Assembly: GCA_030426085.1 (NCBI GenBank)
Contig: JAUHYW010000010.1
Location: 62,001-126,000, forward strand
Length of the DNA stretch: 64,000 nucleotides
Direction: 5' to 3'
From: a bacterium
GTDB taxonomy: Bacteria; Myxococcota_A; Bradymonadia; UBA7976; UBA1532
Below the pieces are notes generated by a model. It did not search any database. It was given only the letters and a program-made list of their open reading frames with translations, and was not told the origin of the DNA. Numbering within the stretch: the stretch's first letter is position 1; every line of letters begins with the position of its first letter. The position numbers and the translations under genes are program-made. Below, piece by piece: positions 52,687 through 64,000 of this stretch.

Positions 52687-52745
52687 GGATGAGCCGCGCC
52701 GCGGGGTTGACCGGCACGGGGGGCTGGAGTAGGGTGCCGGTCGCT

Positions 52746-52829
52746 GCCGGAGTGGCGGAATTGGTAGACGCAGTGGATTCAAAATCCACCGCGCGAGAGC
52801 GCGTGCCGGTTCGAGTCCGGCCTCCGGTA
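52746..52829 (+). tRNA. tRNA-Leu (anticodon CAA)
   Basis: Acceptor stem GCCGGAG (52746-52752) pairs with CTCCGGT (52822-52828); A is the discriminator at 52829. D-loop TTGGTAGAC, anticodon stem GTGGA/TCCAC with anticodon CAA at 52780-52782, long variable arm GCGCGAGAGCGC, and T-loop GGTTCGAGTCC. The CCA end is not encoded. Class II tRNA of 84 nt. Its 3' end is 38 bp before an AAA ATPase gene, a common place for island insertion. Confidence 0.95.
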
Positions 52830-52867
52830 CCCTACCGACTCCTCATCCGATGCGCGCGAGGCTGTCC

Positions 52868-54079
52868 ATGAAGACCTACATGCGACGCGTCCGCCTTCGG
52901 AACTACAAGAACATCGAAGCGTGCGAGGTTCGGCTGGACCAGCTCACCTTCCTGGTCGGGCCGAACGGGTCCGGCAAGTCCAACTTCCTCGACGCCTTGC
53001 GGCTGGTCAGCGACGCGCTGCGCGCCCCGCTCGAGCACGCGCTGCGAGAGCGGGGCGGCATCAAGGATGTCCGCCGGCGCTCCACCGGGCACCCACACGA
53101 TTTCGGCATCAGCCTGGATCTGGAGATCGAGGGCGCCCGAGCCCTCTACGCTTTCGAGGTCGCAGCCGAGGGCGACGGCGGATTCAGGGTCGCCAAAGAG
53201 GTCTGCCGTATCGGTGGACCCCTCCCGGTCTTCCCCGAGCATCACTTCGAGATCGTGCGCCGGAAGAATGGCATCGACTTCGAGACCTCCATCGAGCACC
53301 CGCCGTCGCATTACCCCGATCGGCTGTACCTGACCAACGTCTCGGGGCTCCCCGGCTTCCGCGCCTTGTACGACGCCTTGTCGATGATGGGCTTCTACAA
53401 CCTCAACCCGGCGCAGATCCGCGAGGTGCAGTCCCCCGACCCGGGCGGGGTACTCGCCCGAGATGGCCGCAATACGGCGAGCGTTCTCGGGCGCGTCCAG
53501 GCGACCTCGCCCGGCGACGCTCATCAGATCGCCGACTTCCTCAAGGCCATCGTGCCCGATATCCGAGGGGTGGAGCGGGTCTCTGTCGCCAACAAGGAGA
53601 CGCTGGAGTTCCGCCAGCGGGTGAAGGGATCACCCCACCCCTGGCGTTTCTATGCGAATTGCATGTCCGATGGCACGCTGCGCGCCCTCGGCGTGCTGGT
53701 GGCGCTCTTCCAGAACACGGACAAGATGCACCGGGTCCCGCTCATCGGTATCGAAGAGCCCGAGTCCGCGCTTCATCCCGCCGCGCTGGGGATCCTGCTC
53801 GACGCGTTGCAGGCCGCGAGCAAGTCCACCCAGATCATCGTCACCAGCCACAGCCCGACGCTGCTCGACGTCGACAGCATCGATCAACGCCAGCTTCTGG
53901 CGGTGCGGGCCACCGATGGGGTCGCGTCCATCGGCCCGCTCACGCCGGCCTCGCTGAGCGCGCTGAAGAATCAACTGGCGACCGCGGGTGAGCTGCTCGC
54001 ACAAGGTATGCTCGAGCCCGATGAGACCAGCAGCAGCCGCGAGGCGGGCGAGCTGGATCTGTTCACACCTCTGGACTGA
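52868..54079 (+). CDS. AAA ATPase (RecF/OLD-like, AAA_21 type)
   Basis: 403 residues. Walker A GPNGSGKSNF (31-40) follows an N-terminal RVRLRNYKNIEACEVRLDQLTFLVG of ABC-ATPase-like DNA-repair/defence proteins. The Walker B is LIGIEEPESALHP and the switch His is in IIVTSHSPTLLD. The middle ~200 residues are helical with no nuclease motif, so it is not a full OLD-TOPRIM protein. Similar free-standing ATPases appear in phage-defence systems and on mobile elements, but no partner nuclease gene is adjacent. ATG 52868 with GAGG ahead. Base composition drops to about 60-63% GC just after it (54121-54240 by count). Confidence 0.85.
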   Translation: MKTYMRRVRLRNYKNIEACEVRLDQLTFLVGPNGSGKSNFLDALRLVSDALRAPLEHALRERGGIKDVRRRSTGHPHDFGISLDLEIEGARALYAFEVAAEGDGGFRVAKEVCRIGGPLPVFPEHHFEIVRRKNGIDFETSIEHPPSHYPDRLYLTNVSGLPGFRALYDALSMMGFYNLNPAQIREVQSPDPGGVLARDGRNTASVLGRVQATSPGDAHQIADFLKAIVPDIRGVERVSVANKETLEFRQRVKGSPHPWRFYANCMSDGTLRALGVLVALFQNTDKMHRVPLIGIEEPESALHPAALGILLDALQAASKSTQIIVTSHSPTLLDVDSIDQRQLLAVRATDGVASIGPLTPASLSALKNQLATAGELLAQGMLEPDETSSSREAGELDLFTPLD

Positions 54080-54165
54080 ACACGCATGCATCCCCCTGCT
54101 ACGGTCGTCGCGATCGTCGAATGCCGCATAATGCGCAACACACGCCGCGCGCTGCGACCGATCAG

Positions 54166-54227: not shown

Positions 54228-54932
54228 GTGCATAGAGTCGATGACGCCTTGCTGTTCTTCCGCAGGTCGGCCAACGCGGAGGCGATCTTCGACGGCTTTC
54301 GGCGGCGGGTGATCAGGCGCGATGTCACCCGCGCCCGCGTCGTTGGCGGCCTCTGGTACCACCTCTCCGAACACATCGTCGACGTGCTCTGCACCGCGCT
54401 CGCTGGCCTGAGCGACCCGCACATCCGCCACCTCGTCGTGCAGACCGCCTACGAAGAGCTGGGCGAGAACGACCCGAACCACATCCACACCGATCTGCTG
54501 CGTGAGACGCTGGCCGTCGCCAGCGTGAGCGGTGAGGATATCCTCACCTGGAGCGGTCATCCCACCATCCGCCGGCTGATGACCGACATGATGGAGCAGC
54601 TCCGCAGCTACCAGACCGACGCCGAGATCGCCGGCATGTTGCTCGGCATGGAGTTGGTGGCCTACGAGAACATCGACTTGGTGGTCGACTATCTCGGGCA
54701 CGAGCCGGCGGTGGCCGAAAAGCTGGCCGGGACCCGGTGGGTTCGCCTGCACCACCAGCTCGAAGAGCAGCACATCCGGCGGGCGGTCGGCGTCTTCGTC
54801 GACCGGGTCAAGGCCCCACACGACCAGCGGCGATTCATGGCCGCCTTCGTCGATACGATGGACTTCTGGCGCTCCTTCTGGGGCACGATCGCCGACGAGG
54901 CGTCCTCGATCTCGGCGACGGGCTCGAGATGA
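54228..54932 (+). CDS. Haem-oxygenase-like non-haem di-iron oxidase (HDO type)
   Basis: 234 residues, all-helical. The pattern fits the iron-containing redox enzymes of the Haem_oxygenas_2 type (UndA, BesC, SznF, PolF relatives): YEELGENDPNHIH on one helix (candidate ligands Glu77, His87), GMELVAYEN (Glu142 and/or Glu147) and HHQLEEQHIRRA (Glu179 and His182, an ExxH). Known members use O2 to cleave, desaturate or N-oxygenate amino acids and fatty acids; the substrate here is open. GTG 54228 has GGAG upstream. The SDR gene overlaps its stop (ATGA), so this is the first gene of a coupled operon. Confidence 0.8.
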   Translation: MHRVDDALLFFRRSANAEAIFDGFRRRVIRRDVTRARVVGGLWYHLSEHIVDVLCTALAGLSDPHIRHLVVQTAYEELGENDPNHIHTDLLRETLAVASVSGEDILTWSGHPTIRRLMTDMMEQLRSYQTDAEIAGMLLGMELVAYENIDLVVDYLGHEPAVAEKLAGTRWVRLHHQLEEQHIRRAVGVFVDRVKAPHDQRRFMAAFVDTMDFWRSFWGTIADEASSISATGSR

Positions 54933-55720
54933 GCGGTCCGCTCGACGGTCAATGCGCCATCGTCACCGCGGCCAGCCGGGGCCTGGGTCTGGCGAGCGCC
55001 CGCGCCCTCGCCGAGCGGGGCGCCGATCTCGTCATCTGCGCCCGGGATCGCGCGCGGCTCGCCGCGGCCGCCGACACGCTGCGGCGTGAGACCGGGCGCA
55101 GCGTCGTGCCGGTGGCCGCCGACATCGAGGAGGCTTCCACCGCGGAGCGGCTCGTGGAGGCCGCGACGCGTCGATTCGAGCGGGTCGACATCCTGGTCGC
55201 CAATGTGGGCCACCCGCGCATGGGCGGCTTCGACACCCTCGACGAGGCCGATTGGCGGTCGGGCTTCGACCAGATCTTCCTGGGCACCCTGCGGCTGGTC
55301 AGGGCGGCCGTCGGGCCGATGAGGGCCGCGGGCCGGGGCCGCATCATCAACATCTCTTCCCACGCGGTGAAGGAGCCCGGCTCGACCTATTTGGTCTCGG
55401 CGGTCTTTCGCACCGCCCTGGCGTCCTTGTTCAAAGCGCTGTCCCACGAGGTCGGCGAGGCGGGTATCCGGGTCAATACCATCTGCCCGGGCCTCGTGCG
55501 CACCCCGCTCGGTGAGAGCTTGATCCGCGCGCGCGCAACCCGGGACGGCGTCGCCGAGCGCGAGGCGGAGGTGGCCATGGTGGCGCCCAACGCCATCCGG
55601 CGCATCATCGAGCCTTCCGAATTCGGCGGGCTGGTCGCGTTCCTGTGCAGCCCCCAGGCAGACGCGATGACCGGCCAGCTCATCTCGCTCGACGGGGGCA
55701 AGGGCCGGGGTCTGCTGTGA
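54929..55720 (+). CDS. Short-chain dehydrogenase with atypical active site
   Basis: 263 residues. The Rossmann motif TAASRGLG (about 13-20) and the structural Asn motif equivalent ANVGHPR are present, but the catalytic YxxxK is absent: the segment after ISSHAVKEPGS reads TYLVSAVFRTALASLFK, with Tyr shifted and Lys replaced by Phe/Arg. This matches the BKR-like subgroup of SDRs that has lost the standard Tyr-Lys pair. NTICPGLVRTPLGE follows as usual. It may bind NAD(P) without normal carbonyl chemistry, or use another acid. Its stop overlaps the PhyH start (GTGA). Confidence 0.82.
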   Translation: MSGPLDGQCAIVTAASRGLGLASARALAERGADLVICARDRARLAAAADTLRRETGRSVVPVAADIEEASTAERLVEAATRRFERVDILVANVGHPRMGGFDTLDEADWRSGFDQIFLGTLRLVRAAVGPMRAAGRGRIINISSHAVKEPGSTYLVSAVFRTALASLFKALSHEVGEAGIRVNTICPGLVRTPLGESLIRARATRDGVAEREAEVAMVAPNAIRRIIEPSEFGGLVAFLCSPQADAMTGQLISLDGGKGRGLL

Positions 55721-56607
55721 CTCTTGTCGGGGCAGAGTCGGTGTCGGGCGGGTTGACGGCCGAGCAGGTCGCCGCCTTCCACGACCACGGCTTCGTGGTC
55801 GTGCGCGGTTTCGTCGGTCCGGCCGAGCTTGAGCCGGTGCGCCGGTTCTGCCGCGACGAGCTCGGCGCCTGGCAGACCGAGGTCCGTGACGGGGCGCGGC
55901 GGTATCGGGTCGCCATCTGGACCCACCTCGACGAGTCGTTCTTCGGCCGGCTGCCTCGGGCGAAGCGGATCGTCGACGCCGTCGAGCAGCTCTTGCGCGC
56001 GCGCTGTTATCACTGGCACTCCAAGCTGCTGCGCAAGGCGCCGGGCGACGGCGGGGTCAGCATCCATCAGGACTTCGCCACCTGGTACGAGGATGGCTGC
56101 CTGGGCCCGCAACTCTTGACCTGCAGCATCGCGGTCGACCGCAACGACGACGACAACGGCTGCGTACGGGTCGTGCCCGGCTCCCATCGACTCGCCCGAT
56201 TCCATCGGGTCCGCCTCGGCGAGACCATCGACACCCACGGCGCCGATCCGGTCCGGGTCCAGGCCGCCATCGCCCGCCTCGGCATTCAGCCGGTCGAGCT
56301 CGATCCCGGCGACGCGATGTTCTTCCATTGCAACCTGCTGCACGATTCGTTGCCCAATCACTCGGACCGGCACCGCACGATCCTGCACCTGAGCTACAAC
56401 GCGGTGGAGAATGAACCGCTGCCGATGCCGGGGCAGGCTCATCATCGTCATCGACCTCTGGTGGTCTTGCCGGACGATGCGGTGTTCGGGCGGCTCGACG
56501 TGCCCACTGCCTTCGACGACACCTTTCACCCGCCCGAGACCGACACCGATCCCGGCTACGGGGTCTTCTATCGCCGCAGCGATGCAGACGTGCGCCAGCG
56601 GAGTTGA
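55717..56607 (+). CDS. Phytanoyl-CoA dioxygenase family (PhyH) Fe(II)/2OG oxygenase
   Basis: 296 residues from GTG 55717. The iron ligands are HQD (His117, Asp119) and a distal His, most likely His209 in LLHDSLPNHSDRHR; Arg220 in that block is placed to bind the 2-oxoglutarate carboxylate. YHWHSKLLRK and GCVRVVPGSHRLARFH are family markers. PhyH enzymes hydroxylate, halogenate-like or desaturate small molecules, ectoine and natural-product precursors among them. Overlaps SDR upstream and aminotransferase downstream (TGATG). Confidence 0.85.
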   Translation: MTLVGAESVSGGLTAEQVAAFHDHGFVVVRGFVGPAELEPVRRFCRDELGAWQTEVRDGARRYRVAIWTHLDESFFGRLPRAKRIVDAVEQLLRARCYHWHSKLLRKAPGDGGVSIHQDFATWYEDGCLGPQLLTCSIAVDRNDDDNGCVRVVPGSHRLARFHRVRLGETIDTHGADPVRVQAAIARLGIQPVELDPGDAMFFHCNLLHDSLPNHSDRHRTILHLSYNAVENEPLPMPGQAHHRHRPLVVLPDDAVFGRLDVPTAFDDTFHPPETDTDPGYGVFYRRSDADVRQRS

Positions 56608-56609
56608 TG

Positions 56610-57956
56610 ATGCACGGCATCCTGCGCGACTACGCCGCGCGCTTCGCCCGGAGCCGGTCGCTCGCCGAGAAGGCCCGCGCCCTCCAGCCGGACGGTGTCA
56701 GCAGCGACTCGCGGGTCGTCGAGCCGTTTCCAGTGTTCGTAGACCGGGCCGACGGGGCGACGAAATGGACCGTCGAAGGCCAACCGCTGATCGACCTGTG
56801 GGCCGGCCACGGGGCGCTCCTGTTCGGCCACCGCCCCCCGGCCGTCGAAGCGGCGATCGGGCGCCGTCTCGAGCGCGGAACGCACTTCGCCGCGTGCCAT
56901 CCGCTTGAGCTGGAGTGGGCCGAACGCATCAACCGGATGGTGCCTTCGGCCGAGCGGGTCCGCTTCACCAACTCGGGCACCGAGGCGGTGCTGCTGGCAG
57001 TCCACATCGCCCGGCTGGCCACCGGTCGGCGGACCCTGCTGCGCTTCGGCGGCCACTATCACGGCTGGCACGCGAGCATCAACGTCGGCTCGGGCGAGGC
57101 GGCCCGCGGCGGCTCGACGGCCGTCGATCATGGGGTCGAGGTGCTGCCCCTGGCCGAGCCCGACGCCTTGCGGGCTCGGCTGTCGAGCGGCCATGACGTC
57201 GCCGCGGTCATCCTCGAGCCGACCGGACCCTGCTCGGGGGTGGTGCCGCTGCCGGTCGATACGCTGGTCCGGGTCGGACAGATCACCCGCGAGGCGGGCG
57301 CCGCGCTGATCTTCGACGAGATCGTGACCGGGTTCCGCGTGGCCCCGGGTGGGGCGCAGGCCGCGCGCGGCGTCACCCCCGACATGACGACGCTGGCCAA
57401 GGTCATGTGTGGGGGTCTGCCCGGCGGGGCCCTCGTCGGCGGCGCCCGGTGGCTCGACCTGCTCTCCAAGCGGCGACCGTTCGGCGATCTGCGGATCCCC
57501 CACCTGGGCACGTACAACGGCAGCCCGCTCTCCGCTGCCGCAGGGATCGCGACCCTCGACGCCCTGGCCGACGGTGAGGTCCACTGGCGCATCGACGCGG
57601 TGGCCGGCGCGCTGAAGCGCCGGCTCAACCGGCTCTTCGCCGAGCACAACCTGGATTGGGCCATCTACGGGAGCGGATCCTGCCTCAAGTTGCTCATCGG
57701 CCATGGGCTGCCGGTCTCGGCCGAGGCCTTCGACCCGACCCTCGTCGCCCCGGCCGTGCTCCTGGCCCGGGGGCGCATCGAGACCTGGCGCGCCCTGCGG
57801 CTCGCCTTGCTGCTCGAAGGCGTCGACGCGTCGCTCAGCAGCTTCGTGACGGCCGCCTGCGACGAGGCCACGGTCGATGCCATTGTTCATGCCTTCGCTT
57901 CGGCAATCCGGCGGCTCGGACGGGATGACTGTTTCGGCATGCCCTCGACGATCTGA
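56610..57956 (+). CDS. Class III aminotransferase, glutamate-1-semialdehyde aminomutase-like
   Basis: 448 residues. Fold-type I PLP enzyme: NSGTEAV, GHYHGWH, EPTGPCSG, IFDEIVTGFR (Asp236 contacts the pyridine N) and the Schiff-base Lys264 in TLAKVMCGGLPGGALVGG. It resembles HemL and its paralogues, but no hem genes are adjacent. Probable roles: transamination or amino-group shift on an oxidised intermediate of this cluster. GGAG is six bases before ATG 56610; ATG 56607 is an alternative that would overlap the PhyH stop. Confidence 0.87.
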   Translation: MHGILRDYAARFARSRSLAEKARALQPDGVSSDSRVVEPFPVFVDRADGATKWTVEGQPLIDLWAGHGALLFGHRPPAVEAAIGRRLERGTHFAACHPLELEWAERINRMVPSAERVRFTNSGTEAVLLAVHIARLATGRRTLLRFGGHYHGWHASINVGSGEAARGGSTAVDHGVEVLPLAEPDALRARLSSGHDVAAVILEPTGPCSGVVPLPVDTLVRVGQITREAGAALIFDEIVTGFRVAPGGAQAARGVTPDMTTLAKVMCGGLPGGALVGGARWLDLLSKRRPFGDLRIPHLGTYNGSPLSAAAGIATLDALADGEVHWRIDAVAGALKRRLNRLFAEHNLDWAIYGSGSCLKLLIGHGLPVSAEAFDPTLVAPAVLLARGRIETWRALRLALLLEGVDASLSSFVTAACDEATVDAIVHAFASAIRRLGRDDCFGMPSTI

Positions 57957-57965
57957 GGAGGTCGT

Positions 57966-58946
57966 ATGCCCGCCACTTTCGACATGCCCGCAGATGCGCT
58001 GCCCGACTACGTAGGCGTCAGCCCCAAGCCGGCGGACTTCGACACCTACTGGGACGGCGGGCTCGCCGAGATGCACGGCCTCGGCGTCGCTGCCAGGCTC
58101 GAGCCGGCGTCGTTTCGGGCGCCGTTCGCCCGCTGTTCGCACCTTCGCTTCGTCGGCGTGGGCGGCGCCGAGATCCACGCCAAGCTGCTCCAGCCGAGGC
58201 ACCTCGCTCGGCCGGCACCGGCCGTCGTATTCTTCCACCCGTATGCCCGGGGCTCGGCCGATTGGGTCGAATACCTGCCCTACGTCGCGCGTGGATTCAC
58301 CGTCGCGGCGATGGACGTGCGGGGGCAGGGCGGGCTCTCTCGGGACCCCGGCTCGGTCGTCGGCCATACGCTGCGCGGGCACATCGTGCGCGGCCTCGAT
58401 GACCGGCCGGAGAAGCTCTTCTATCGATCGGTGTTTCTGGATACGGCGCAGCTCGCGCGCATCGTGATGAACCTCGATGGGGTCGACGCCGACCGGGTCG
58501 GGGTGTCGGGCATGAGTCAGGGGGGAGGCCTCGCGCTCACGTGCGCCGCGCTCGAGCCGGGTGTGCGCATGGTCGCGGCCATCGCGCCGTTCTTGAGCGA
58601 CTACCTGCGGGTCTGGCAGATCGACCTCGCCCGGGACGGCTACGCGCAGCTACAGGAGTACTTCCGGCGCTTCGATCCACTGCACGCGCGCGAGCGCGAG
58701 GTCTTCGAGCGCCTCGGCTATATCGACGTGCAGTACCTCTGCCCGCGCATCCGAGGCGAAGTGCTGCTGGCGGTGGGGCTCATGGACACGATCTGCCCTC
58801 CCTCGACCCAATACGCCGCGTACAATCGCATCACGGCGCCGAAGTCGACGCTGGTCTACCCGGACTTCGGTCACGAGATGCCCCCCGGGCTCGCCGATCG
58901 CGTATTCGCGTTCCTCGGCCGGCTGGGCGAACCGGCGCATGATTGA
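57966..58946 (+). CDS. AXE1/cephalosporin-C deacetylase family esterase
   Basis: 326 residues, the family length. Ser184 in GMSQGGG, Asp274 in GLMDTICPP and His303 in FGHE complete the triad; FFHPYARG and MDVRGQGGLSRD are the oxyanion and family landmarks. Members deacylate small acetyl esters such as xylo-oligosaccharides and cephalosporin C. Here it probably removes a protecting or activating acyl group from a pathway intermediate. AGGAGG is 6 bases before ATG 57966, the best ribosome site of the cluster, so it can be translated independently. Confidence 0.87.
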   Translation: MPATFDMPADALPDYVGVSPKPADFDTYWDGGLAEMHGLGVAARLEPASFRAPFARCSHLRFVGVGGAEIHAKLLQPRHLARPAPAVVFFHPYARGSADWVEYLPYVARGFTVAAMDVRGQGGLSRDPGSVVGHTLRGHIVRGLDDRPEKLFYRSVFLDTAQLARIVMNLDGVDADRVGVSGMSQGGGLALTCAALEPGVRMVAAIAPFLSDYLRVWQIDLARDGYAQLQEYFRRFDPLHAREREVFERLGYIDVQYLCPRIRGEVLLAVGLMDTICPPSTQYAAYNRITAPKSTLVYPDFGHEMPPGLADRVFAFLGRLGEPAHD

Positions 58947-59931
58947 GCGGCCTGTCGTCGCCATCCTCGACTTCGATCCGGGCAAGCACTTCGTCCGACC
59001 GGACGTCGAGCGCGCCGTGCTCGGCCCCGACGCCCAGCTTCGCCTTATCCGGCATCGCGATCCGTCGGCCGTCGTGCCCGGCATCGTCGATGCCGACATC
59101 ATCATCGTCTGGAGTCGCTTCGAACTGACCGCCGCCACCCTGAGTCGACTCGAGGGCTGCCGAGGCATCGTCTGCGCCTCGGTCGGCTACGACCACGTCG
59201 ACCTCGAAGCAGCCGGGCGCGCGGGCATCCCCGTGTGCCATGTGCCCGACTATGGCACCGAAGAGGTGGCGGACCACGCGCTGGCGCTCATGCTCTCGGT
59301 CCTTCGTGGGCTCCCGCGGCTTCATTCGGCGGTGGTTTCGGGCCGCTGGGACTGGCGGGATGGCGCCCCGCTCCGGCGCCTTCGCGGCCTCCGTCTCGGC
59401 CTGGTGGGGCTCGGCCGCATCGGCACGGCGATGGCGTTGCGGGCCCGGGCGTTCGGCTTTGACATCGGCTTCTACGACCCCAACCTGCCAGTCGGTGTCG
59501 AGAAGGCTCTGGCCCTGCGCCGATTCGAGACCCTCCGGGGGCTGTTGAGCGAGAGCGACGTGCTCTCGCTGCACGCCCCATCGACACCACGAACGCGGGG
59601 GATGATCGACGCCCGGGCGCTCTCTACGATGCCCGCGGGCGCCGTCCTGATCAATACGGCGAGGGGCGATCTGGTCGACGCGGACGCTCTGGTCGCTGCG
59701 CTCGACGCCGGTCGGCTCGTCGGGGCCGGGCTCGACGTCGTCACCGGCGAGCCGATCCTGCCCGAGGCGCTGCGCGATCACCCCCGCGTGCTGTGGACCC
59801 CCCACGCCGCCTGGTACTCGGCGGCCTCGTTCTCCGACCTGCGGACGCGGTCGGCGCTGTACGCGCGCGCGTTCCTCGCTGGCCGCCCCGTGTCGACCCG
59901 GCTGGCGCACCCGGGAGGTCGCGCCGATTGA
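58939..59931 (+). CDS. D-2-hydroxyacid dehydrogenase family protein
   Basis: 330 residues. The NAD motif is GLGRIG (157-162), and catalytic residues Arg242 (NTARGD), Glu271 (TGEP) and His289 (TPHAAWYS) are intact. PHAAWYS is typical of the CtBP/phosphoglycerate-like subgroup. Reaction: NAD(P)H-dependent reduction of a 2-keto acid to a D-2-hydroxy acid, or the reverse. The Asp180 at the end of strand 2 (GFYD) favours NAD. It overlaps the esterase gene by 8 bp. A 109-bp gap precedes the ATPase gene. Confidence 0.88.
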   Translation: MIERPVVAILDFDPGKHFVRPDVERAVLGPDAQLRLIRHRDPSAVVPGIVDADIIIVWSRFELTAATLSRLEGCRGIVCASVGYDHVDLEAAGRAGIPVCHVPDYGTEEVADHALALMLSVLRGLPRLHSAVVSGRWDWRDGAPLRRLRGLRLGLVGLGRIGTAMALRARAFGFDIGFYDPNLPVGVEKALALRRFETLRGLLSESDVLSLHAPSTPRTRGMIDARALSTMPAGAVLINTARGDLVDADALVAALDAGRLVGAGLDVVTGEPILPEALRDHPRVLWTPHAAWYSAASFSDLRTRSALYARAFLAGRPVSTRLAHPGGRAD

Positions 59932-60040
59932 CTTTCAGCCCGTGATCAACGAGACCGGGAAGGCGCAGGGTTCTCCGCACGCACCTCCGTTGCTTGTCGG
60001 GTCTCGCCGACGACCATTCCTCAGCCCCCTGGGAGGCGAC

Positions 60041-62086
60041 ATGATTGGCGGCCTGCTCCTCACGGGGGGCGCAGCCTGGCTGGCATATCGGTACTTCCGG
60101 GATCGCACCGGGCTCCGGCCGGGCATCAGGGACACGTCGGAGCGGGGTGGGCCACGAGGCGACGGGCCACCGCTCGTCGAGAGCGCGGGGTCCCCGCCCG
60201 CCGAGGCGAACCCGCCGGACGCGCCCGATGAAGCCGCGGTCCGGCGAGGCCTCGCCGTCTCGTGCTCCTCGCTGGTCATGGTCTCGGCGGGGCATTTGAC
60301 CCGCAGCTCGCTGCTCACCATGGGCGGCGTGCCGCTGGTCGTCCTGGCCGGCGCCGGGTTCGTCCACGAGTCGTGGCGCATGTGGCGCGAGGAGCGGCGC
60401 CCGGTCGCCATCATGGACGGGGTCGTGATCACCATGGCGCTCGTCACCGGCCAGTTCGCCACGACGGCCCTGCTGGCGACGCTGGCCTATGGCAGCCGCC
60501 TGCTCTTGAACGCGACCGAGGATCGCTCTCGGGAGAGCACGCGCCTGCTGTTCGCCGAGCTCCCGCGCACGGTGTGGCTCCGCCGCGACGGGCAAGAGAT
60601 CGAAGTCCCCCTGTCGGCGGTCGAGATCGGTGAGGCCATCCTCGTCGAGGCTGGCCAGGTCGTGCCGTTCGACGGCTCCATCACACAGGGTCGGGGCCGG
60701 CTCGACGAGCGCGCGCTCACCGGCGAGTCGATGCCCGTGGAGAAGACGGTCGGCGACCCGGTGTTCGCGACCACGATCGTCCTCGAAGGTCGCGTCCTGC
60801 TGACCGCAGATCGTTCCGGCGGCGACTGCATTGCCGCCGACGTGACCGCCACCCTGTCGCAGGCCAGCGACTATCGCGAGCGCGTGCGTCAACGAGGCGA
60901 GCGGCTCATCGACGAGGGTGTGGCTCCGACGGCCGCTGCCGGCGTGACCACGCTCGTATTGCGGGGCTCCAACGCCGCGTTGGCGGTCCTGTTCTGCTCC
61001 TTCGGCTACATCCTCCGCTACGTCGGCCCCATCGCGGTCCTCAACTACCTGCGGGTCGCTTCCCAGAACGGCGTGCTGGTCAAGGATGGTCGGGCCCTCG
61101 AGGTGCTCGGCGCCATCGATACGGTGGTGCTCGACAAGACCGGGACCCTGACCGAAGACCAGCTGCAGATCCTGCGGGTCGAGCCGCTCTGCGAGCTCGA
61201 TGAGCCGACCCTGTTCGCCCTCGTCGCCGGGCTCGAAGCGCGGCAGACCCACCCGATCGCCCGCACCCTCGTCGCCGGCGCCACAGAGCGGGGTGTGCCC
61301 GTCGAGCCCCTCGAGGGCGTCGCCGTCGAGCTCGGTCTGGGGCTGCGGGCCCTGGTCGATGGGGTCGACGTGGCGATCGGCAGCCGGACCTACATGGTCG
61401 ACCGCGGGATCGACGTCACGTCGGTGGTGGGCCTCGAAGACGAGGTCGACGCCGGCGTGACGCGCATCTATGTCGGCCGCGGTGACGACCTCGTCGGCTG
61501 GATCGAGCTGGGCCCGCGCATCCGCCCCGAAGCGGTGTCGGTCGTCGAGGCTCTACACGCCCGCGGGCTGGAGGTCGTCATCCTCTCGGGTGACCGTGAG
61601 GGGCCGACCCGGCGGCTCGCCGCGGAGGTCGGGGCCGACGCCTACCACGCCGAGGTGCTGCCCGACGAGAAGGCGCGGGTGATCGAAGCCATGCAGCAGG
61701 CGGGCCGTCGGGTCTGCTTCATCGGCGATGGCATCAACGACGCCATCGCGCTCAAGCAGGCCGATGTCTCCATCTCGCTGAGCGGGGCGACCGCCGTGGC
61801 GCGGGACACGGCAGCCGTGGTGCTGATGAGCGGCACGCTCGAGCAGGTGGACTGGCTCTTCGGTCTCGCCGGGCGCATGCGAGACAACCTCGATGTCAGC
61901 GTAGCCCTGTCGACCGCGCCGAGCGCATTGTGCGTCGCGGGCGTCTACGTATTCGGCTTCGGGTTCGGCCACGCCATCTTGATCTATCAATTCAGCCTGA
62001 TCGCGGGTCTGGTCAACGCGATGCGGCCGGTGCTCGCGGAGCGCGCGGCCTCGCCCGACGCTCAGGGAGAGGATGGACGGCGATGA
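60041..62086 (+). CDS. P1B-like P-type ATPase without the CPC metal motif
   Basis: 681 residues. The phosphorylation motif DKTGT (Asp365), TGES (227-230), a P1B-style HP dipeptide (404-405) and GDGIND (562-567) are intact, so it should hydrolyse ATP. The transmembrane segment that normally carries CPC/SPC reads FCSFGYILRYVGPIAVL (about 318-335): the invariant Pro and second Cys are missing. There is no N-terminal HMA domain. The substrate is therefore not a standard heavy metal, or the protein is altered in function. ATG 60041 has GGGAGG before it; a GTG at 59942 would add 33 poorly conserved residues. It overlaps the SDR start by ATGA. Confidence 0.85.
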   Translation: MIGGLLLTGGAAWLAYRYFRDRTGLRPGIRDTSERGGPRGDGPPLVESAGSPPAEANPPDAPDEAAVRRGLAVSCSSLVMVSAGHLTRSSLLTMGGVPLVVLAGAGFVHESWRMWREERRPVAIMDGVVITMALVTGQFATTALLATLAYGSRLLLNATEDRSRESTRLLFAELPRTVWLRRDGQEIEVPLSAVEIGEAILVEAGQVVPFDGSITQGRGRLDERALTGESMPVEKTVGDPVFATTIVLEGRVLLTADRSGGDCIAADVTATLSQASDYRERVRQRGERLIDEGVAPTAAAGVTTLVLRGSNAALAVLFCSFGYILRYVGPIAVLNYLRVASQNGVLVKDGRALEVLGAIDTVVLDKTGTLTEDQLQILRVEPLCELDEPTLFALVAGLEARQTHPIARTLVAGATERGVPVEPLEGVAVELGLGLRALVDGVDVAIGSRTYMVDRGIDVTSVVGLEDEVDAGVTRIYVGRGDDLVGWIELGPRIRPEAVSVVEALHARGLEVVILSGDREGPTRRLAAEVGADAYHAEVLPDEKARVIEAMQQAGRRVCFIGDGINDAIALKQADVSISLSGATAVARDTAAVVLMSGTLEQVDWLFGLAGRMRDNLDVSVALSTAPSALCVAGVYVFGFGFGHAILIYQFSLIAGLVNAMRPVLAERAASPDAQGEDGRR

Positions 62087-62844
62087 AGGGTCTGGCAGGC
62101 AAGCGATGCCTCGTCACCGGCGGCGCGTCGGGTATCGGTCGAGCCACGACGGAGCGCCTGCTCGTCGAAGGCGCCCGCGTGGCGGTTGTCGACATTCGCG
62201 TCGACAGCTGCACAGCCCTCGAGGATCGCTTCGGCGAGCAGGTGAAGGTCGTCGCTGCCGACGTGAGCCTCGGCGAAACGGCCGGGCGCGTCGCCGACGC
62301 GCTGCACCTCGAGTGGGGCGGCGTCGACGTCCTGGTCAACAACGCCGGGATCTGCGTCCGGACACCGACGACCGACGCCGCGATCGACCGCGAGGTGTGG
62401 CAGCGGCACTTCGATGTCAACGTCCTCGGGCTCTATGCGCTGGCGCGAGGGGTCGTCGAGCCGATGCGGGCGGCAGGCGGGGGGGTGATCGTCAACATGG
62501 GCTCGGTGAGCGGCATCGTCGGCATGCCCGGCTATGCGGCCTACAACGCGAGCAAGGCGGCGGTGATCAACCTCACCCAGACGCTCGCGCTCGAACTCGC
62601 GCCAGACATCCGCGTGGTGGCGGTGAGCCCCGGCTTCGTGATGACACCGATGCAGCGGGATGCGTACACCGACGAGGGCCTCGCAGCGATCAACGCCACC
62701 ATCCCGCTACGGCGTCACGCCGAACCCGACGAGATCGCTGCCCTCATCGCCTTCCTCGCCTCGCAGGAGGCGCCGTTCATCACCGGCTCTCACATCGTCA
62801 TCGACGGCGGTGAGTCGGCCGGTGGGCTCGCGAGCGTGGTATAA
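62083..62844 (+). CDS. Short-chain dehydrogenase, canonical
   Basis: 253 residues. TGGASGIG (12-19), NNAGI (86-90), Ser in MGSVSG, YxxxK as Tyr154/Lys158 (YNASK), VSPGFVMTPMQ and ITGSHIVIDGG: all standard SDR elements. The Asp at 37 after strand 2 (VVDIR) indicates NAD(H). It presumably oxidises or reduces an alcohol/ketone in the cluster and complements the atypical SDR at 54929. The stop TAA shares one base with the next ATG (TAATG). Confidence 0.92.
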   Translation: MKGLAGKRCLVTGGASGIGRATTERLLVEGARVAVVDIRVDSCTALEDRFGEQVKVVAADVSLGETAGRVADALHLEWGGVDVLVNNAGICVRTPTTDAAIDREVWQRHFDVNVLGLYALARGVVEPMRAAGGGVIVNMGSVSGIVGMPGYAAYNASKAAVINLTQTLALELAPDIRVVAVSPGFVMTPMQRDAYTDEGLAAINATIPLRRHAEPDEIAALIAFLASQEAPFITGSHIVIDGGESAGGLASVV

Positions 62845-63692
62845 TGACCGGTATCAACCGTGTTCGACAGCTCGACGCGCGCACCTTCCGCCGACGGTAC
62901 TTCCGGCCGAAGCGGCCCGTCCTCGTGCGCGGGGGAGCGTCCGGGTGGCCCGCGATGGAGTCGTGGTCCTTCGCCCGGCTTCGCGACATGGCGCCCGAAG
63001 CCGAGGTCCTCACCGAGCGGGGCAATGTGCTCCAGGGCGAGACCGATATGGCCCTGCGGCCCTTGCGGCGATATATCGACGCGCTGATCGCGGGTGAACT
63101 CGACAACACGCCGGCCGACCAGCGGGAGTACCTGTCGCTACTCGATGTCTTCGGCCTGCTGCCGCAGCTCAGGCGCGATGTCGACTTCTCGTTGATCGAG
63201 TCGGTGACGATGCGGCAGCAGATCTTCGGCTGGCTCGGGCCGGGCGGCACGCTGACGGGCTATCACATCGACTGGATCGACAATACCCTGGCCCAGATCC
63301 GGGGGCGCAAGTCGGTCGATCTCGTCGCGCCGGAGCAGTCGGCGGGCATGTATCCGACCCGGCGCTTCTCGTATCGGGGCACTCTCAGCGCCATCGAGCC
63401 TGATGAATGGGATCCCGTTCGGCATCCGCGCTTCACCGAGGTGACCCCCCTGCGGGTCGAGCTCGAGCCGGGCGACCTGCTCTACATCCCGCTCGGGTGG
63501 TGGCACCGCGTCCGCGCGCTGGAGCCTTCGCTGAGCGTCAACGCGTTCGGCCACGATCTGCGCGGCCTGCTCCGACACCAGATCCCCTGGCTCATCCGCC
63601 GCCAGATGCATTGGGCGGGGCTATACCGCCGGGCATCGTGCACCTGTCACCACTTCGAAGACGGCCGCCGCATGGAGCGCACCCCGTATTGA
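62844..63692 (+). CDS. Cupin_8/JmjC-like Fe(II)/2OG oxygenase
   Basis: 282 residues. The iron triad is visible: His141 and Asp143 in GYHIDW and His221 in PLGWWHRV; GRKSVDLVAP supplies the 2-oxoglutarate-binding Lys156. RPVLVRGGASGWPA at the N-terminus is the usual cupin_8 opening. Family members hydroxylate proteins, tRNA or small molecules, so a metabolite in this cluster is a fair guess. The C-terminus has CTCHH and a basic tail. Starts on the SDR stop and ends 55 bp before the PLP decarboxylase gene. Confidence 0.83.
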   Translation: MTGINRVRQLDARTFRRRYFRPKRPVLVRGGASGWPAMESWSFARLRDMAPEAEVLTERGNVLQGETDMALRPLRRYIDALIAGELDNTPADQREYLSLLDVFGLLPQLRRDVDFSLIESVTMRQQIFGWLGPGGTLTGYHIDWIDNTLAQIRGRKSVDLVAPEQSAGMYPTRRFSYRGTLSAIEPDEWDPVRHPRFTEVTPLRVELEPGDLLYIPLGWWHRVRALEPSLSVNAFGHDLRGLLRHQIPWLIRRQMHWAGLYRRASCTCHHFEDGRRMERTPY

Positions 63693-63747
63693 GTATGTAC
63701 GCCCGCCCTACGAACGCCAGCGCCGGGCGATCGACGCTGTCTCGTCG

Positions 63748-64000
63748 ATGAGCGATTCGGGTGGCGCCTCGGGGCGCTCGCCGCGCGCCGACGCCGCGGA
63801 TCCGCTCTCGCCCGATCCGACTCGATTCTCGGTCCGACGCAGCGGCGGACGGCTGACGCTCGACGGCGTCGACCTCGCCGAGCTCGCCTCCGACCTGGGC
63901 ACGCCGACCTATGTCTACGCGATACGACAGGTGTGCGCCCGCTACCGCGCCTTCCGTGGTGCCTTTACCGGGGTTCCGCTCACGGTGGCCTACGCGGTCA
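63748..64000 (+). CDS. LysA-like PLP decarboxylase, 5' part only
   Basis: 84 residues before the window edge. After a ~24-residue polar leader, LAELASDLGTPTYVYAIRQVCARYRAF and the terminal TVAYAV lead to the position where fold-type III decarboxylases have the PLP Lys (AVKAN), which is just past the edge. Related to diaminopimelate and ornithine/arginine decarboxylases, a family that includes ACP-linked amino-acid decarboxylases such as BtrK. It indicates that an amino acid is decarboxylated in the pathway. ATG 63748 is the first start after the oxygenase stop. Confidence 0.7.
   Translation, partial: MSDSGGASGRSPRADAADPLSPDPTRFSVRRSGGRLTLDGVDLAELASDLGTPTYVYAIRQVCARYRAFRGAFTGVPLTVAYAV

Follow-up and report, generated by a model that had tools for sequence, protein, structure and literature searches.

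Gene content and layout of the locus

The window analyzed here, a stretch of 64,000 nucleotides (C31:62001-126000) from a 10.1-Mb myxobacterial draft genome of the phylum Myxococcota, to which Plesiocystis also belongs, ends in a run of ten open reading frames (ORFs) on the + strand, which we interpret below as most of a biosynthetic cluster. An earlier note, made from the sequence, had described ten genes in one direction and assigned each to a family; all the ORFs and every family call held when checked with Pfam and NCBIfam. The note had also advised looking past position 64000, where we found the end of the tenth gene, a LysA-like decarboxylase (stop at 65142), an eleventh gene encoding an amidinotransferase, which is convergent and overlaps the 3' end of the decarboxylase gene, and the right border of an insertion. 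Positions past 64000 continue the window numbering. The eleven genes are:

54228-54932, + strand: HDO-type haem-oxygenase-like dimetal oxidase (HDO); PF14518 (Haem_oxygenas_2) 1.9e-14, fold match
54929-55720, + strand: short-chain dehydrogenase/reductase 1 (SDR1); Pfam SDR, S-x3-R replacing Y-x3-K
55717-56607, + strand: PhyH Fe(II)/2-oxoglutarate (2OG) oxygenase; PhyH 8e-32, HxD and H motifs
56607-57956, + strand: class III aminotransferase; Aminotran_3 3e-46
57966-58946, + strand: AXE1/cephalosporin-C deacetylase-like esterase; AXE1 9e-112, S-D-H triad motifs intact
58939-59931, + strand: D-2-hydroxyacid dehydrogenase, C-terminal-binding-protein (CtBP) subfamily; 2-Hacid_dh_C 1e-52
60041-62086, + strand: P1B-like ATPase without CPx (GP instead); TIGR01525 over cut-off
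62083-62844, + strand: SDR2; Pfam SDR, classical YNASK motif
62844-63692, + strand: Cupin_8/JmjC oxygenase (Cup8); Cupin_8 1.7e-37
63748-65142, + strand (window part 63748-64000; L009:10748-12142 after the edge): LysA-like pyridoxal phosphate-dependent decarboxylase; lysA TIGR01048
65133-66206, minus strand (L009:12133-13206): AGAT-type amidinotransferase, by similarity to a congener protein and by motifs

As the earlier note had seen, the ten genes are mostly joined by overlaps; where neighbors are spaced apart, no gap exceeds 10 bp save the 55 bp before the LysA-like gene. Two starts were corrected, those of PhyH (likelier at 55717, with a GTGA overlap) and of the aminotransferase (likelier at 56607, TGATG). 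The longest ORF of the ATPase begins at 59942; comparison with its paralogues suggests 60041 as the likelier start, which opens one further gap of ~110 bp. The GC content at third codon positions (GC3) of the eleven genes lies between 0.86 and 0.91, against a median of 0.94 for 48 other genes of the contig (p = 4e-6), and that of the amidinotransferase matches its cluster neighbors. A sigma-70 promoter scan found no promoter.

A six-gene core shared with Plesiocystis pacifica

The first six genes, from HDO to the D-2-hydroxyacid dehydrogenase, are present in Plesiocystis pacifica SIR-1 (NZ_ABCS01000006; G223 C232:57022-62831) in the same order and direction, with ~49-71% identity; because order and orientation are kept, the run is more than a chance assembly. 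When 379 Myxococcota genomes were searched with HDO and PhyH, the one close relative of HDO was that of P. pacifica, and only this species and the window genome scored above 600 bits for PhyH, the next match reaching 195; the loci of these next PhyH relatives held no cluster partner genes. A scan of GTDB genome contigs with the HDO pair, for which two narrow patterns were used, returned P. pacifica only. Among plasmids no HDO was found, and the matches to PhyH, aminotransferase, dehydrogenase and esterase stayed below 60% identity and shared no record.

The remaining genes are distributed in another way. The CPx-less ATPase is not in the P. pacifica genome at the threshold used, and in the 40 kb of P. 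pacifica sequence inspected at the locus no SDR2, Cup8, LysA-like or amidinotransferase gene turned up. SDR2 and Cup8 are closest, among the genomes searched, to a different operon of a congener (G209 C40, L111:3214-15386), with which the window cluster has in common SDR2 (52%), Cup8 (53%), the amidinotransferase (47%) and a CPx-less ATPase (37%); however, the six-gene core is absent there, and the operon carries its own carbamoyltransferase, B12-radical SAM enzyme, two methyltransferases, PALP enzyme and CN hydrolase. The set thus compared has the look of a mosaic, in which a six-gene core is combined with an SDR/cupin/amidinotransferase/ATPase part known from elsewhere.

Insertion into a candidate defense system

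One 14,873-bp insertion, bounded by a 9-bp direct repeat, contains all eleven genes together with two transposase remnants. The features of the site are:

52745-52832, + strand: tRNA-Leu(CAA), found by ARAGORN; integration hotspot, by sequence comparison, left of the region
52850-54079, + strand: HEC-01A, AAA ATPase of a candidate defense system (PADLOC, 491.7 bits)
54086-54121, + strand: start fragment of HEC-01B, its first 12 codons (MHPPATVVAIVE), ending in the 9-bp repeat ATCGTCGAA (54113-54121)
66999-67397: IS66 TnpB remnant
67509-69005: ISKra4-family transposase remnant
68986-69567 (L009:15986-16567): remainder of HEC-01B without its start, beginning at the second ATCGTCGAA (68986-68994)

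The two HEC-01 genes are adjacent, A being intact and B split by the 14,873 bp. That a single insertion entered HEC-01B follows from the repeat at both ends and from the joined flanks, which restore one ORF of 202 amino acids that matches the HEC-01B models from residue 1 (225 bits vs. 199 unjoined). The insert has no clear terminal inverted repeats.

DNA synteny with the congener G209 extends to base 52831, the 3' end of the tRNA, and ends there. G209 repeats 56 bp of the tRNA 3' end at a distance of 30.7 kb, and phage-integrase genes lie within this interval and directly beyond it. These findings in G209 mark the tRNA-Leu(CAA) gene as an integration hotspot. The window's own contig holds no second copy of the tRNA end. 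Placed like this, the cluster belongs to accessory mobile DNA, not to conserved primary metabolism. The earlier note had named two findings that would refute its reading: that the genes occur together nowhere else, against which stands the recurrence of the core in P. pacifica, and that the set is conserved within a known primary pathway, against which stands its rarity on mobile DNA.

Oxidases and core enzymes

An AlphaFold model of HDO (predicted local distance difference test score 72, moderate) matched BesC, CADD-like, HrmI, PolF and UndA structures with probability 1.00 and a best E of 2.8e-3, while there was no sequence-level match to solved HDOs. Residues E76/E77, H87, E142, H175, E179 and H182, putative metal ligands, are conserved in both species and presumably fit the known HDO metal-ligand pattern. 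The window contains a second gene of the HDO family (PF14518; 32924-33532, minus strand), weak yet over the cut-off, and the congener has a similar one at G209 C25.

PhyH carries the iron triad HxD...H with Asp, as in hydroxylases and not halogenases (H141, D143, H233); its nearest solved relative is a leucine hydroxylase, followed by ectoine hydroxylase. An ectoine pathway was considered and rejected: PhyH scores far under the EctD cut-off, and ectoine synthesis genes are absent from the insert. Catalytic motifs are intact in PhyH, Cup8, AXE1, the dehydrogenase, the aminotransferase, SDR2 and the amidinotransferase. The aminotransferase is nearest, among solved proteins, to D-phenylglycine aminotransferase, and Cup8 to JMJD5. 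Tandem cupin_8 arrays occur elsewhere in the genome, with six consecutive matches at C106 (L041:2193-8003). In SDR1, S-x3-R stands in place of the catalytic pair Y-x3-K in the window genome and in P. pacifica alike, so that a redox role of this protein is doubtful.

Decarboxylase and amidinotransferase

The LysA-like protein scores over the curated TIGR01048 cut-off (414.9 vs. 297.9 bits). It has C-D-S at 370 in place of the C-E-[ST] motif, and the Y of its STY segment is replaced by F; these are substrate-related positions of diaminopimelate decarboxylase. A housekeeping lysA as the only reading was set aside, as another lysA-type gene lies at C88 (TIGR01048 threshold), to which the cluster copy is just 36% identical.

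A Pfam search of the amidinotransferase gave no hit. Its family call comes from a congener protein to which it is ~50% identical and which has SxtG, HsvA and human AGAT as solved relatives; the catalytic Asp, His and Cys are present (FDAADF 189, HIDTTF 239, HCATLD 341). With this enzyme in the cluster, a guanidino step in the pathway is likely.

P1B-like ATPases without the metal motif

The earlier note had called the seventh gene a P1B-like ATPase. The family score stands, being over the heavy-metal cut-off (TIGR01525), as do the P-type catalytic motifs DKTGT, TGES and GDGxND, but the CPx metal motif of the membrane helix does not: RYVGPIAVL is found where CPC is expected. No HMA domain was detected by Pfam. 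Judged by the missing CPx motif, the protein is not a typical heavy-metal pump, and a metal-transport reading was set aside on this ground.

Nine other ATPase relatives without CPx are found in the window genome and that of the congener, together with a true CPC pump at C104. A CPx-less ATPase lies within 10 kb of an amidinotransferase gene at three of four loci in two species: the window cluster, G209 C40 and G209 C24 (L126:7889-17938). At the last of these it is 3 bp from an SxtG-like amidinotransferase gene, with a polyketide synthase (PKS) gene adjoining. For G209 alone, random placement would give at least two of three with a chance of ~3e-4, a test made post hoc. The three amidinotransferase-linked ATPases fall on different parts of the ATPase tree and were thus probably recruited separately. 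In 17 amidinotransferase neighborhoods of other genera, some of them on short contigs, no close CPx-less ATPase was found, only one weak P-type ATPase match of 30%; and the literature searched offered nothing tying a P-type ATPase to natural-product export.

Further loci deserve mention. The G209 C24 locus with ATPase, amidinotransferase and PKS is another guanidino-type cluster. In the window genome, a CPx-less ATPase gene lies near genes for an Orn/Lys-type decarboxylase and, as read from its sequence, an apparent spermidine synthase (C161, L038:6736-12132); another is convergent with PKS and sulfotransferase (Sulfotransfer_5) genes (C34, L034:10-11220); and two cupin_8 genes adjoin a third (C153, L032:5132-6900). 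In G354 C62 (L129:6057-9855) a CPx-less ATPase gene lies close to a JmjC_2 gene and to a 101-residue ORF part of which resembles a RiPP leader (RiPP, ribosomally synthesized and post-translationally modified peptide).

Motif-less P1B-like ATPases linked with amidinotransferase clusters are the least expected part of this analysis. A speculative reading, which we consider rather unlikely as it stands, is that those of this genus are exporters of organic cations (guanidino compounds or polyamines) instead of metal pumps and were several times recruited to guanidino-metabolite clusters as dedicated pumps. It is suggested by their proximity to amidinotransferase genes in three clusters on different tree branches, by the one beside spermidine-synthase-like and decarboxylase genes, and by the absence of the metal motif from all of them.

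Proposed pathway and alternative explanations

We propose, with a probability of roughly 0.6, that 54228-66206 is a horizontally acquired 11-gene cluster for a small oxidized amino or guanidino compound made without an assembly line. Several observations argue for it: the operon layout with mostly overlapping genes and the six-gene core kept in P. pacifica; the intact catalytic motifs, together with the HDO fold and conserved putative metal ligands; the proximity of PhyH to amino acid and ectoine hydroxylases; an adjoining amidinotransferase of matching GC3 in a rare and mobile cluster; and a second biosynthetic operon, in a congener, that again combines the SDR2, cupin, amidinotransferase and ATPase families.

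We infer the product, the substrates and the order of reactions as follows. PhyH, similar to leucine and ectoine hydroxylases, would hydroxylate a free small amino acid or a close relative, and SDR steps would oxidize the resulting alcohol. The class III aminotransferase could install or move an amine and the CtBP-type dehydrogenase could interconvert 2-keto and D-2-hydroxy acids, the two together reworking the carbon skeleton; AXE1 may remove an acetyl group. HDO would perform the unusual step, either oxygenating nitrogen or rearranging C-C or C-N bonds oxidatively. In the extension found in the window genome, Cup8 and SDR2 may add further oxidation, the LysA-like enzyme with its altered substrate motif may produce an amine by decarboxylation at a D-center, and onto an amine the amidinotransferase would transfer an amidino group from arginine, yielding a guanidine. 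Export of the product, or its exclusion from the cytoplasm, is the probable task of the CPx-less ATPase.

Some points weigh against this proposal. The core is known from two occurrences only, a thin conservation, and P. pacifica has just these six genes, so that genes 7-11 may serve something else. SDR1 is without the classical catalytic Tyr and Lys, the LysA-like protein scores as a true diaminopimelate decarboxylase, its gene perhaps duplicating a housekeeping one, and the amidinotransferase is on the opposite strand.

The split distribution raises the possibility of two functions side by side, in which the six-gene core makes a compound of its own and the ATPase, SDR2, Cup8, LysA-like enzyme and amidinotransferase make or process a different guanidino compound, the two sets sharing the insertion and perhaps a promoter. 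P. pacifica does have the core without the rest, and the congener has the SDR2, Cup8, amidinotransferase and ATPase families but no core; however, the gap between the halves is at most ~110 bp, GC3 is similar throughout and both halves lie in a single insertion, and we regard this explanation as unlikely. Much less probable is a metal-chelating metabolite accompanied by a metal-handling P1B ATPase: such pumps occur in some metallophore operons and the ATPase passes the heavy-metal cut-off, but GP replaces its CPx motif, Pfam finds no HMA domain and other metal genes are absent from the insert. That the operon instead serves to degrade an unusual amino or hydroxy acid appears, if anything, less probable again. 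Esterases, aminotransferases and dehydrogenases often take part in catabolism, and the solved protein closest to the cluster aminotransferase, D-phenylglycine aminotransferase, is catabolic; yet an HDO, an amidinotransferase and a pair of 2OG oxygenases are unusual there, no uptake system or regulator was seen, and the distribution is very rare.

Returning to the biosynthetic cluster, it shares fold and putative metal ligands with the HDO of pathways such as those of BesC, HrmI, PolF and UndA, although partner genes differ and sequence-level similarity to solved HDOs is lacking. With guanidine pathways that use AGAT-type enzymes (SxtG, HsvA) it shares the amidinotransferase family, but its partner oxygenases are another set and the insert lacks a PKS: none of the annotated ORFs encodes a PKS or PKS-like starter enzyme such as those of saxitoxin/cylindrospermopsin-type guanidine clusters. 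The earlier note's idea of an oxygenase-rich cluster for a small compound of amino acid type is in part supported, by the recurring core and the accessory DNA; the mosaic look had escaped it. The note had recognized no described cluster with these genes, and we too found none with this family combination in the open-access literature, a scope to which the word "undescribed" is limited. It belongs to a known kind, small-molecule clusters without assembly lines, within which this gene set appears to be new.

Clusters free of non-ribosomal peptide synthetase, PKS and RiPP genes are easily overlooked by rule-based genome mining. Among the enzymes encoded here are an HDO and two 2OG-type oxygenases, which belong to families with a record of unusual chemistry. 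The six-gene core, present also in the named strain P. pacifica SIR-1, is small enough to be expressed whole. Should the link between ATPases and amidinotransferases hold, the large family of paralogous P1B-like ATPases without the motif would gain a function, and the link could be used to locate further guanidino metabolites.

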